From assembly GCA_902776455.1 (NCBI GenBank), contig CACYQI010000025.1:1-46378 (forward strand): DNA of 46,378 nt, read 5' to 3'. The notes below the pieces were generated by a model. It ran no database searches and was not told the DNA's origin. It worked only from the letters and a program-made list of their open reading frames with translations. Within the stretch, counting starts at the first letter, position 1. Each line of letters opens with the position of its first letter. Shown here piece after piece: positions 6,843-46,378 of this stretch. This DNA is from an uncultured Bacteroidales bacterium (lineage in GTDB: Bacteria; Bacteroidota; Bacteroidia; Bacteroidales; Bacteroidaceae). The translations under genes and the position numbers were made by a program.

Positions 6843-6852
6843 TAAATTCAAA

Positions 6853-7131
6853 AAAGATTAAAGATTACAGATTACAGATTAAAGTTTGGTTGTTTTGCTG
6901 CCAGCCATCACTATCAGCCTTAATCCTTAATCTTAAAGGGGGAGAAAAGATTAAAGATTAAAGATTACAGATTAAAGTTTGGTTGTTTTGCTGCCAGCCA
7001 TCACTATCAGCCTTAATCCTTAATCCTTAATCTTAAAGGGGGAGAAAAGATTAAAGATTACGGATTAAAGTTTGGTTGTTTTGCTGCCAGCCATCACTAT
7101 CAGCCTTAATCCTTAATCCTTAATCTTAAAA
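6853..7131. repeat. Three tandem copies of a 93-bp element
   Basis: The identical 39-base core (from AAAGTTTGGTTGTTTTGCTG through CCAGCCATCACTATCAGCC) starts at 6881, 6974 and 7067, a period of exactly 93. GATTAAAGATTACAGATT units flank each core on the left and CCTTAATCCTTAATCTTAAA on the right, so the flanks are imperfect inverted repeats of one another. A fourth copy in opposite orientation lies at 14443-14533. It fills the whole gap between apbE and the Crp-like gene; no gene is present. Confidence 0.9.
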
Positions 7132-26100: not shown

Positions 26101-26110
26101 TTCGGCATCT

Positions 26111-26198
26111 GTTCACACTCCACGAGGCATCCGTTCACACTCCACGGAGCATCGGCTTACACTCCACGGAGCATCGGCTTACGCTCCACGGAGCGTGA
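26111..26198. repeat. Four-unit 22-bp palindromic array
   Basis: Units at 26111, 26133, 26155 and 26177 have an exact 22-bp period and share ACACTCCACGGAGCATCG with few changes; the last unit contains GCTCCACGGAGC. The opposite-strand version forms the array at 39571-39658. The units have no spacers, so this is not a CRISPR array. Confidence 0.85.
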
Positions 26199-35482: not shown

Positions 35483-37027
35483 ATGAAAACTATTTGCTTA
35501 TACTTTGAGATACATCAACCCATACATCTCAAGCGCTACCGTTTCTTCGACATCGGCACCGACCACTACTACTACGACGACTACGAGAACGAGCGCGTCA
35601 TCAACGAACTCTTCGAGAAGAGCTACAAGCCTGCCTTGCAGACGATGCTCGACATGATTGAAGAGAATGGCAAAGCCTTCAAAGTGGCCTTCAGCATCAG
35701 CGGTGTCTCCCTGGAACTCATCGAGCAGTATGCTCCCGAGATGCTCGAACTCCTTGGCCGACTGGCAGCTACAGGCTGCGTAGAGTTCCTTGCCGAACCC
35801 TACAGCCACGGCCTTTCGTCGCTGGCAGGCCCCGAGAACTTCGTGGCCGAAACGAAGCGTCAGGCCAAGAAGATAAAGCAACTCTTCGGACAAAGTCCCA
35901 AGGTGTTCCGCAACAGCTCGCTCATCTACGACGACGAGATAGGTGCTATCGTGGCCGACATGGGCTTCAAGGGCGTGATGGTGGAAGGCGCGAAGCACAT
36001 CCTCGGCTGGAAGTCGCCGCACTACATCTACTCCTGCGCTCAGGACTCCCGCCTTTCGCTCATCTTGCGCGACTACAAGCTTTCCGACGACATCGGCCTT
36101 CGCTTCAACGACGCCTCCTGGTCGGAGTATCCCCTCATGGCCGACAAGTGGCTCAGCTGGGTAGCAGCTCTGCCCGAAGGCGAGAACGTGGTGGGCATCA
36201 TGATGGAGCTTGCTGCACTCGGCTACTACCAGCCCCTCGGCAGCCACATCCTCGACTTCCTCCGCGCCCTGCCGATGCTCGCAAAGGACATGGGCATCCA
36301 GTTCGCCACACCTTCCGAAGTGCTTGCCAAGAACAAGCCCGTCAGTCCGCTCGAAGTCACATATCCCGTCAGCTGGAACGACGAGGAGCGCGACACCAGC
36401 AGCCTGCTCGGAAACGGCATGCAGCGAGAGGCCTTCAACAAGCTCTACGACGAGAACATCGTAGGCCGCATCCTCGCTTGCCGCGACCGCCGCATTCAGC
36501 AGGACTGGGACCGCCTGCAGGCCACCGACAACTTCCGCTTCATGACCACCAAGAACAACGGCATGGGCAACAACCGAGGCATCTACGACAACGAGTACGA
36601 CGCCTTCACCAACTACATGAACATCTTGGGCGACTTCCTCAAGCGCGTCAAGGACATGTTCTCCGACTCTGTAGAGAACGACGAACTCAACAGCCTCTAC
36701 ACGCAGATAGCCAACATGGGCGAGGAACTCAACGTCAAGGACAACGAGATAAGTCGCCTGCGTGCTCGCCTCAAGAAGCTTGGCGATGCCGAGGAAGAGG
36801 AAGAAGTAGAAGCCTCTCCTAAATCCTCCCCTAAAGGGAAGGACTTAAAGCCTGCAGCCAAGAAGGCTCCGGCAAAGAAGGCAGAACCAAAGGCAAAGCC
36901 AGCAGCCAAGAAGGCTCCGGCAAAGAAGGCAGAACCGAAGGCAAAGCCAGCAGCCAAGAAGGCTCCGGCAAAGAAGGCAGAGCCGAAGGCAAAGCCAGCA
37001 GCTAAGAAAGCACCGGCAAAGAAGTGA
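35483..37027 (+). CDS. GH57 family protein with Lys/Ala/Pro-rich repeat tail
   Basis: A 514-residue protein of the Bacteroidetes glycogen cluster. The GH57 fold is indicated by CLYFEIHQPIHLKRYRFFD, EFLAEPYSHGLSSL and GQSPKVFRNSSLIYDDEIG, with SWNDEERDTSSLLGNGMQREAF later. The usual GH57 nucleophile Glu (in NTEL) is replaced by Ser in NSSL (residues 144-147), and the region of the acid/base Asp (MDYETFGEH) reads MMELAALGYYQ (240-250), so canonical activity is questionable. A coiled coil (about 400-435) is followed by SPKSSPKGKDL (repeat-encoded) and then PAAKKAPAKKAEPKAK units to the end. The stop overlaps the next start. Confidence 0.85.
   Translation: MKTICLYFEIHQPIHLKRYRFFDIGTDHYYYDDYENERVINELFEKSYKPALQTMLDMIEENGKAFKVAFSISGVSLELIEQYAPEMLELLGRLAATGCVEFLAEPYSHGLSSLAGPENFVAETKRQAKKIKQLFGQSPKVFRNSSLIYDDEIGAIVADMGFKGVMVEGAKHILGWKSPHYIYSCAQDSRLSLILRDYKLSDDIGLRFNDASWSEYPLMADKWLSWVAALPEGENVVGIMMELAALGYYQPLGSHILDFLRALPMLAKDMGIQFATPSEVLAKNKPVSPLEVTYPVSWNDEERDTSSLLGNGMQREAFNKLYDENIVGRILACRDRRIQQDWDRLQATDNFRFMTTKNNGMGNNRGIYDNEYDAFTNYMNILGDFLKRVKDMFSDSVENDELNSLYTQIANMGEELNVKDNEISRLRARLKKLGDAEEEEEVEASPKSSPKGKDLKPAAKKAPAKKAEPKAKPAAKKAPAKKAEPKAKPAAKKAPAKKAEPKAKPAAKKAPAKK
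36812..36850 (+). repeat. CCCTAAAGGG element inserted in the GH57 coding sequence
   Basis: GCCTCTCCTAAATCCTCCCC followed by TAAAGGGAAGGACTTAAAG encodes ASPKSSPKGKDLK in frame. The same sequence, in reverse on the plus strand, lies at 19059-19095 and 42440-42475, in the same reading frame of unrelated genes. Confidence 0.85.
36851..37024 (+). repeat. 48-bp coding tandem repeat
   Basis: Three 48-bp units (36851, 36899, 36947) and a 30-bp partial unit encode 16-residue PAAKKAPAKKAEPKAK blocks. The units differ at only a few bases, so copy number may vary between strains. Confidence 0.9.
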
Positions 37028-39570: not shown

Positions 39571-39658
39571 GCTCCGTGGAGCGTGGGCCGATGCTCCGTG
39601 GAGCGTAAGCCGATGCTCCGTGGAGCGTGAGCCGATCCTCCGTGGAGCGTAAACTGAG
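39571..39658. repeat. Four-unit 22-bp palindromic array, opposite orientation
   Basis: Units at 39571, 39593, 39615 and 39637 with an exact 22-bp period share GCTCCGTGGAGCGT(A/G)AGCCGAT. Each contains GCTCC-GT-GGAGC, able to form a hairpin. Reverse-complement relative of 26111-26198. It is followed by GCCTCATTGGGCCTATT repeats (about 39667-39708). No gene lies between 39434 and 39748. Confidence 0.88.
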
Positions 39659-42955: not shown

Positions 42956-44476
42956 TTATTTGAAGAGAATCTTCTTTCCATTGATGATATACAGTCCATT
43001 TCCTGGAGCGCTGACCTTCTGTCCCTGCAGATTATAGATGTCTTCTGCCGTAATGTAATCTTCGATGTTCTGCAATGCGGTCGGGTCGTCGTCGTCAAAG
43101 GCGAGGCGGATAGCCTTTACATTCGAGACGCTCGCTGTCGGCAGTTGCAGATAAGCCTTGCCTGCAGCAAGCTCTCCGCTGGAAGAAAGCGTATAGAAGC
43201 CGACGCCGTGACTGCCAGTCGATAGGATGAAGTTGGTGTAACTGCCTTCTGTGGGAGAAATGGTTGTGGCGGTCGTTACGCCTTTCAGGAAGTTAGAGTA
43301 CAGCATATCTGTTGTTGTAGTAGGAATTTTGTATGTGCCTGGGTCGCCTACTATGTAAAGTCCCTCGCCTGCAGGCACTTCATCTACTCTTGTCAGTACA
43401 AGCCTACCTGTAGAAGGGCTGAACCCGCTGGCAATGTAAGCCCTCAACCCACTTACCCCAGAGAAGTCCAAATCACGCGTTGAGCTGTATGTGGCATAGC
43501 CTGAAGAACCAATCTCTACTTCTGTTTCTTCCACAACACCGCCTTTGAATACACTCGTTGTCCATTCTGCTGCGATATAAGCATCTCTTTTTCCCTTCGG
43601 CACAGTTAACACACAATCCGACGATATCCCTTCAAAAGCACCAGCACGAAGATTAAAAGGCTCTTTTATTTTTGAAACGACAGAGGTCAGACCGCTGCAA
43701 CCATAGAAGGCATAATCACCGATTGTGGTCACACTAGCAGGAATAGTAATAGAAGACAAATTTACAGTAGAAGGCTCAGTGTAATTATCGAACGCTCCTG
43801 CCCCTATGCCTAATGTACCGTCTCTCAATGTGATATTTGTATTAGCTGGCATAGAACCCTTATATCTATATGCGACATTACCTGCATACACCATTCCATC
43901 CGGCTGATTGTTATACCAAGCAGTACCATCAAATACAAATTCGCTATCATCGTCGGAAAAACCTATGTAACTCAAGTTACTGGGAAAGGTAATGTCTGCA
44001 AGTGAGCTACAGTCCGTGAATGCACCCCATGAGATTGAGGTTACACTCTCAGGTATTATGATGGAGGTTAGACCGCTACAGTCTCGAAAAGTAGCAGGAG
44101 AAATGGTGGTCAATACGTTTGGAATAGTAAAAGAGGTCAGGCCGCTGCAGTCTTCGAAGGCACTACTACCGATGCTTGTCACGCTGTTGGGGATGGTGAT
44201 GGAGGTCAGGCCGCTGCAGCCTTCGAAGGCATTACTACCGATGCTTGTCACGCTCTCAGGAATAGTGATGGAAGTCATATTTGTGCAATCAAAGAAAGCA
44301 TCGTCTTCTATACTTGTCACGCTGTTTGGGATGGTGGTATTTTGGCAACCCGCAATCAGGGTGTTTGTGGCAGTTTCAATAATGGCATTGCAGTTGTCAC
44401 GGGAATCATAGGTGGTATTACCGGTTTCAACCTGAATGAAAGTCAGGCTAGAGCAACCAGAGTATTTGTATATCAT
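42956..44476 (-). CDS. BspA-like leucine-rich repeat protein lacking a signal peptide
   Basis: The frame gives 506 residues. LRR_5-type repeats of about 23 residues (CSGLTSITIPNSVTSIGSSAFED and relatives, about residues 48-150 and 230-265) are followed by a KGKRDAYIAAEWTTSVF spacer, a beta-rich region beginning EIGSSGYATYSSTRDLDFSG, and a C-terminal AEDIYNLQGQKVSAPGNGLYIINGKKILFK sorting-type motif. Surface proteins of this class bind host or bacterial ligands. The first residues MIYKYSGCSSLTFIQVETGN enter mid-repeat with no signal sequence, and nothing suitable lies upstream, so the 5' end has probably been lost. Confidence 0.85.
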   Translation of the reverse strand: MIYKYSGCSSLTFIQVETGNTTYDSRDNCNAIIETATNTLIAGCQNTTIPNSVTSIEDDAFFDCTNMTSITIPESVTSIGSNAFEGCSGLTSITIPNSVTSIGSSAFEDCSGLTSFTIPNVLTTISPATFRDCSGLTSIIIPESVTSISWGAFTDCSSLADITFPSNLSYIGFSDDDSEFVFDGTAWYNNQPDGMVYAGNVAYRYKGSMPANTNITLRDGTLGIGAGAFDNYTEPSTVNLSSITIPASVTTIGDYAFYGCSGLTSVVSKIKEPFNLRAGAFEGISSDCVLTVPKGKRDAYIAAEWTTSVFKGGVVEETEVEIGSSGYATYSSTRDLDFSGVSGLRAYIASGFSPSTGRLVLTRVDEVPAGEGLYIVGDPGTYKIPTTTTDMLYSNFLKGVTTATTISPTEGSYTNFILSTGSHGVGFYTLSSSGELAAGKAYLQLPTASVSNVKAIRLAFDDDDPTALQNIEDYITAEDIYNLQGQKVSAPGNGLYIINGKKILFK

Positions 44477-45012: not shown

Positions 45013-46342
45013 ATGATACGAGATTTTTGGGTAAAGAACTATCTTTCCATTCGCGACAAGCAGGAATTAAGCTTCGTGGCCAAGGGACCTTCTTCAGAAC
45101 TTGTCACCGAAGTTGCAGATGGTGTGTTCTTGTATAAGTTGGGCATCCTATATGGTTCAAACGCTTCGGGCAAGTCGAATATGCTGATTGCCATGAACGA
45201 GGTGTTCCGCCTGTTAGTCATGCCAAAGGCTGATGCGACAGTCGAAATTGGCGGTTGCATACCCTTTGTGCTTACCAAAAATGAGCCAACGGAAATGCAC
45301 GTGTCATTCTATGCCGATGGCACCCGATATGACTACGATGTCAAATTCAACGGCAAACACATTCTGAGTGAAGCCTTGTACTATTACCCAAATAAATCCA
45401 AATCGCTGTTCTACGAGCGTAGTTTTGTGGGCGAGAATGTACAGGCCGACATCAAATTTGGCGCGAGCCTCAAACTGCAAGTCAAGACGCAGGAGAGCAT
45501 CCGCGAAAACACCTTGAACAACCACAGTGTACTGTCCGTTTGCCGAAAGGCAGCCTTGAAAGAAGATATAGCTCCATTCAACACGCTTCACGCTTGGATT
45601 ATGTCCAATTATCACGACGTAGATGGTGATGTAGAAAAGGGACTTGTTGAAATCTTGAAGGATGCTTACAGCAATCCTAAGAAGCGTAAGTTCTATAACA
45701 CCATGCTCCAGAAAGCCGACTTGAATATTCTAGAATATCGTCCTATTGTTGAAGACCGCATTGTACCCAACGATTTCCGCGAGCGTATCCAAAAGGAAAA
45801 TATCCCAGAGGAGATGAAAGATGTTCTGTTGAAGCCCACAACAGATTCTATCACATTCTTGAACCATTCCGACAATGGCGACTTTGACATTCCACTCAGA
45901 TGGCAGTCAAAGGGCACTCAGAAATACATCCGCATATTGGATGCCTTGTACGACCTGATAACGAGTCCTCATGTGTACTACCTTGATGAACTGCTTGTAC
46001 GACCTGATAACGAGTCCTCATGTGTACTACCTTGATGAACTGGGCGAGGACCTGCACAACGACTTGTTGTACTACTATCTCAATGTCTTCATCTTCAACT
46101 CCGACAAGTCGCAGTTGGTTATCACGAGTCAGGAGACTACCCTCCTGTCGCAGGACATGATTAATGAGAACCGAGGTGTGGTGTGGTTTGTCGAGAAGAA
46201 TAAAGAGACAGCTTCGTCCGAATATGCTCGTGGCGACTCCTTTGGCTTGCACAAGAACCTCTCGCTTTACAATTCATACCGCATAGGCCGATTGGGTGCC
46301 AAACCAGAACTGGGTAGTATCTTTATAAATCTGGAGGACTGA
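45013..46342 (+). pseudogene. AAA_15-type defence-like ATPase disrupted by a 49-bp duplication
   Basis: An SMC/ABC-like ATPase of the kind found in abortive-infection systems. MIRDFWVKNYLSIRDKQELSF opens the fold, and YGSNASGKSN (residues 47-56) is Walker A. The central helical region follows, then WQSKGTQKYIRILDALYDL and HVYYLDELGEDLH with Walker B. The first frame stops at 46035 after LVRPDNESSCVLP because a perfect 49-bp tandem duplication (45945-45993 and 45994-46042) shifts the frame inside Walker B. The second frame then continues HNDLLYYYLNVFIFNSDKSQLVITSQE...GSIFINLED to 46342. Removing one copy restores a 426-residue protein. The next ATG is one base downstream. Confidence 0.88.
45945..46042 (+). 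repeat. Perfect 49-bp tandem duplication
   Basis: Two identical 49-base copies beginning CTTGTACGACCTGATAACGA and ending CTTGATGAACTG abut at 45993/45994. Because 49 is not a multiple of three, it changes the reading frame of the ATPase gene. Confidence 0.95.
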
Positions 46343-46343
46343 T

Positions 46344-46378
46344 ATGGGAAAGCTACGACAAACAGCACTCATCCTGGG
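46344..46378 (+). CDS. Start of a downstream partner gene, cut by the window edge
   Basis: ATG 46344 follows the ATPase stop by one base, and the frame stays open to the edge as MGKLRQTALILG. The basic start leading into a hydrophobic strand with Gly resembles the beginning of RloB/TOPRIM-type proteins (ALILGEG...), which commonly follow such ATPases. With only 11-12 residues this is a context-based guess. Confidence 0.45.
   Translation, partial: MGKLRQTALIL

Follow-up and report, generated by a model that had tools for sequence, protein, structure and literature searches.

Near the right-hand end of the window, our name for the whole 46,378-nucleotide stretch analysed here, the gene for a defence-type ATPase is interrupted by a perfect 49-bp tandem duplication. 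A perfect repeat of this kind cannot be put down to chance, and what has to be asked is whether the organism itself carries it. The original prediction proposed a reversible duplication serving as on/off switch of an abortive-infection pair, and named recent inactivation and assembly error as alternatives. On the evidence set out below, these two alternatives are the likelier readings.

A tandem duplication shifts the frame of an AbiLi-type ATPase gene as assembled

The two identical copies adjoin on the forward strand at 45945..45993 and 45994..46042 and form a perfect tandem (score 196, 100% matches, 0% indels), just as predicted for the boundary at 45993/45994. This junction holds just two copies and not one further matching base, so that it is without microhomology. 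As a source of the duplication, slippage at short repeats was considered and rejected, given the lack of microhomology at the junction and the wrong spacing (48, by eye) of a nearby GACCTG repeat.

As assembled, the 5′ frame of the ATPase (45013..46035, forward strand) encodes 340 amino acids, composed of 327 family residues and 13 foreign, frame-shifted residues that run to a stop at 46035. Copy 1 ends with the codons of LDEL, which we take to be Walker B, and its last base completes codon 327, the final L of that motif; the frame shifts in copy 2. The shift had been placed within Walker B; its cause is indeed the duplication, but its position is just after the DE pair. The rest of the ATPase lies in a second open frame on the same strand (45971..46342), which PADLOC likewise assigns to AbiLi and within which 45980-46339 corresponds to residues 307-426 of an intact relative. 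When each piece was searched separately against that relative, the two window frames matched residues 1-327 at 98% identity and residues 307-426 at 96%. The intact ATPase has 426 residues in five relatives of the genus. Its stop ends at 46342 in the window and the next ATG stands at 46344, in agreement with the prediction that the following gene begins one base past the ATPase stop.

The assignment to a defence-type ATPase holds, with a different family from the one first proposed. Pfam AAA_21 scores well above its cut-off (65.8 bits, cut-off 27), while AAA_15, the family originally named, falls under its own (17.6 versus 32.1). The best PADLOC match is AbiLi (PDLC02335) for both window pieces (P0001, E = 2.1e-37; P0002, E = 1.2e-21) and for the intact relative (E = 7.6e-60), and the AriA match of the ATPase is weaker than that to AbiLi. 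A sequence that is presumably Walker A, GSNASGKS, was located by eye from the translation at residues 48-55 (45154..45177, forward strand), where seven of eight columns are invariant in a 19-sequence alignment. None of the four proteins searched against NCBIfam hit a family at E 0.01, and a sequence search of solved structures gave 0 matches for the ATPase at the same threshold. Its predicted structure is a weak model (mean pLDDT 62.3) and carries no weight as evidence.

The ATPase belongs to an AbiL-type pair whose partner is partly seen

Directly after the ATPase, the window holds the first 11 codons of what begins as an RloB/AbiLii-type gene (46344..46378, forward strand), which is cut by the contig end. 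By eye, these codons give the first 11 residues of the partner gene in a sister-species draft, G095, which is both Pfam RloB (PF13707) and PADLOC AbiLii. This is in line with the expected RloB/TOPRIM-like gene beside the ATPase. Judged by sequence, the locus is an AbiL-type two-gene pair of an AAA ATPase and an RloB effector, with the partner only partly seen in the window. The window copy is broken as assembled, its ATPase being frame-shifted. The rest of the draft to which the window belongs (G000) gave no RloB match, in a search that carried no positive control.

AbiL-type ATPases are common in gut and rumen Bacteroidales. We confirmed 136 ATPase stretches and kept the best 80, which come mainly from rumen and gut Prevotellaceae/Bacteroidales drafts, with some isolates; among these 80 are two Fibrobacter draft records and Segatella baroniae B14, which has copies on both chromosomes. 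Six of the 80 loci end inside the ATPase and four have too little downstream sequence. Where a full ATPase was followed by enough sequence, a full RloB gene adjoined it in 60 of 70 loci and was absent or broken in the other 10, in a list selected on the ATPase, so that broken ATPases are under-counted. Across 16 RloB sequences, the invariant acidic residues E13, D66, D68 and E105 fit what we take to be a TOPRIM-like site. A sequence search of solved structures returned 0 matches for RloB at E 0.1, and its predicted fold (mean pLDDT 71.8, a weak model that carries no weight as evidence) had 0 of 1132 matches at E 0.001.

Described systems suggest how such a pair may work. The window pair resembles AbiL of Lactococcus lactis (AbiLi and AbiLii) in having an AAA ATPase directly followed by an RloB/TOPRIM-related effector, with AbiLi and AbiLii as the best PADLOC matches; it differs in representing a Bacteroidales branch, in its frame-shifted ATPase and in a partner that runs off the contig, and its part in phage defence is a predicted one. 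PARIS (AriA and AriB) likewise pairs an ABC-type ATPase with a TOPRIM-family nuclease, but the AriA match is the weaker one here and the partner in G095 is RloB (PF13707)/AbiLii, with no AriB match listed. In PARIS, according to the available portion of PMC11455837, the ATPase, AriA, keeps the TOPRIM nuclease AriB sequestered and sets it free when a phage protein is sensed. Excerpts of PMC10440598 describe AAA antitoxins paired with TOPRIM_OLD toxins, name AbiLii as the toxic effector of AbiL and relate RloB to OLD_TOPRIM domains. By analogy, the ATPase most likely restrains the RloB effector in a window-type pair. That RloB is absent or broken beside a full ATPase in those 10 of 70 loci fits an ATPase that is the safe partner, bearing in mind that the list was chosen on the ATPase. 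If the ATPase does restrain RloB, a frameshift confined to the ATPase would leave the effector free, unless RloB is brought down as well through coupling of the two starts.

This arrangement bears on the proposed switch, in which recombination or slippage would remove one 49-bp copy and so re-activate the ATPase, with both states kept in the population. If the duplication were real and reversible, one duplication would suffice to arm and disarm a defence pair. In principle, a perfect 49-bp direct repeat can collapse; any sporadic duplication, however, is formally reversible, so that reversibility is no evidence for a switch. Phase variation by tandem duplication occurs in pneumococcal capsule genes, cap3A among them. 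The accessible text of PMC4243769 reports control of such genes by reversible sequence duplications (Waite 2001, 2003, cited therein) and documents in-gene duplications that disable cap8E and tts. The window shares with these cases a short in-gene duplication that disables a gene, and differs in that no reversion, mixed population or recurrence has been demonstrated for it. Moreover, since the ATPase is the antitoxin in the related AAA/TOPRIM pairs described in the parts available of PMC10440598 and PMC11455837, breaking the ATPase alone offers no obvious safe "off" state and would not be protective. A literature search on duplication and phase variation found no paper, from which we do not claim that a switch of this kind is absent from print.

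Relatives carry the ATPase gene without the duplication

We compared the site across relatives, as the original prediction had suggested for strains. The ATPase has a match in 35 of 139 genomes of the genus, the window's own included. From 120 hits we obtained 84 distinct alleles of 147 nt around the site, each with at least 70% protein identity and spanning residues 303-349 in one frame. The 49-bp duplication was present in 0 of these 84 alleles, for which in-frame reading was part of the selection, and all loci that failed this selection were cut by a contig end except that of G095. Nor did any other locus compared have a 49-bp tandem, and the relatives had no tandem repeat at the site. Of the features expected of phase variation, the window as assembled has a perfect in-gene tandem with a frameshift; recurrence of such duplications was found in none of the loci compared, where the one lesion at the same base is a deletion in G095. 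The ATPase sequence matches only once in G000, where neither a continuation nor a second copy of the locus was found, although a mixture would stay hidden in a consensus assembly. The switch is therefore not supported, and we consider it very unlikely.

The same comparison leaves room for a real, recent and private tandem duplication that inactivated the ATPase in the window lineage, ending it after 340 amino acids with loss of the region past Walker B. The RloB gene, whose start lies one base past the normal ATPase stop, would then lose its translational coupling, and the pair would be dead or dying. Both gene halves are otherwise open and retain 96-98% identity to the intact relative, so that the lesion would be recent. 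Decay of the pair is common, judging by the 10 of 70 loci in which the effector is absent or broken, and disabling in-gene duplications have the pneumococcal precedent given in the available text of PMC4243769. This reading has to accommodate a junction without microhomology, and losing the ATPase alone should be costly if the ATPase restrains RloB.

Other lesions of the ATPase also exist. G095 has a 98-bp deletion (twice 49) in the same gene, at L003:2481-2482, which corresponds to 46042-46043 of the window; its left edge coincides with the junction base of the window duplication, and by eye it too is without microhomology. It lies 11 kb from the end of its contig, and comparison of the G095 gene with its nearest relatives along its length found no identical block. 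A further draft, G112, is in frame at the site and has a 1-base deletion upstream of it. The frames in RloB's place in G095 and G112 have 203 or 201 amino acids, that of G095 alone having been matched to RloB. If these lesions are real, the ATPase can be lost with the effector frame kept.

The coincidence of the left breakpoint in two drafts of different species, together with 98 being twice 49, raises the idea that both lesions go back to a hot spot of breakage or recombination at the base that follows LDEL. We regard this as extremely unlikely: there are just two cases, noticed after the fact, the 84 other distinct alleles are undisturbed at the site, and the same type of assembly error may have affected both drafts. 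Very unlikely, too, is the combined proposal that a real reversible duplication keeps an AbiL-type pair dormant until loss of one copy re-arms it, with the base of the G095 deletion as a rearrangement hot spot.

At the site itself, two rumen drafts of other species match the window exactly with a single copy: RUG497 and RUG142, from a collection that holds one genome per species. Their identity with the window extends through 73 bp left of the unit, one 49-bp unit and 68 bp right of it. Both contigs stop at the position of window base 46110, and the adjoining base differs in allele L062. Over the whole left match, shared block included, differences from the window occur at 110 of 1498 positions for RUG497 and 107 of 1532 for RUG142. 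The identity of the nearest relative shifts all along the window ATPase gene, and the shared block could accordingly stem from natural recombination instead of an assembly join.

The assembly context points to a possible untrimmed join

A complete contig of a Prevotellaceae-like draft (94 contigs, 87.25% complete) makes up the window. Position 46378 is therefore the end of a contig, 336 bp past the end of the duplication. Among the 14 genus genomes with an ATPase match of at least 74% identity, the window's own included, contigs end inside the ATPase gene in six (G131, G133, G130, G125 with two such ends, G031 and G091), and at least eight of the matches listed at 80% identity or more start at contig base 1-3. 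We also compared 82 contig termini of G000, from 41 of its 94 contigs. In seven pairs of termini the shared sequence is exactly 99 bp long, which fits an assembly graph with k near 99-100, and six further end-to-end overlaps of 95, 95, 89, 86, 81 and 31 bp remain unmerged. Contig C41 of the draft has one run of five N, which may mark a gap in a scaffold or sequence that was masked.

Graph assemblers branch at sequence blocks that are shared between genomes. Here we infer a join in a graph-based metagenome assembly: two pieces with a 49-bp end overlap would have been placed end to end with the overlap untrimmed, inside a stretch that is near-identical to the drafts of two other species (RUG497 and RUG142), and the organism itself would have an ordinary single-copy ATPase gene, like those two drafts at the site. 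Untrimmed joining of ends that overlap by 49 bp would yield a perfect two-copy tandem without microhomology, as is seen, and the zero extra bases at the junction, which are unlike slippage between short repeats, count for such a join. The frequent contig ends in the ATPase gene, the shared block and the unmerged short overlaps make an assembly origin a serious reading. It gains further from G095, a second draft with a lesion at the same base, in which one pair of contig starts shares 99 bp.

Several considerations weigh against a join. The window contains no N, to our knowledge exactly such an untrimmed-overlap error has no published description, and reads across a junction are ordinarily required before a graph path is taken. 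The lesion of G095 lies far from its contig end, and the shared block could be a product of natural recombination. Untrimmed joins are also at best rare, given the few perfect tandems with long units in the part of G000 that we surveyed (966,378 of 3,394,765 bases). Most perfect tandems in those bases belong to 7-bp or 22-bp families, and the other perfect tandems with units above 30 bp are those of L145 (55 bp and 66 bp), L184 (48 bp) and L164 (36 bp), which may be natural. The 55-bp tandem of L145 has two copies and zero extra bases, lies 317 bp from its contig start and resembles an intergenic repeat elsewhere in the contig. Per-sample assembly with idba_ud is documented, for the RUG sets only, in the accessible parts of PMC5830445 and PMC6785717.

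Taken together, we favor an assembly join artefact over biology as the origin of the 49-bp duplication, at about an even chance. Real private inactivation explains the window as directly and is nearly as likely; what tells against it, besides the junction, is that the site lies close to where the contig stops, in a stretch common to other species and in an assembly with unmerged short overlaps. On present evidence, the main value of the locus is as a caution about pseudogenes in draft metagenome genomes, for which read support is needed. Defence genes that are near-unchanged between species are where draft contigs end, and there they may be mis-joined.

Other repeats and neighbors of the locus

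Sequences related to the ATPase were also sought among viruses, where one stretch matched the search pattern and none encoded an ATPase relative. Upstream of the ATPase, on the opposite strand, the window carries a BspA-type leucine-rich repeat gene (42956-44476) with a 69-bp repeat at 44121-44277. A GH57 family gene (35483-37027) carries at its end an in-gene 48-bp repeat of about 3.7 copies (36847-37024), and a 93-bp tandem array of 2.9 copies with AAAGATT heptamers inside it is found at 6852-7130. Many tandem arrays of a 22-bp unit, which is often a variant of a single sequence with CTCCACGGAG in it, occur throughout G000 (for example, L129:19374-19430 and L143:12030-12209), and two of them lie within the window, at 26105-26194 and 39571-39650.
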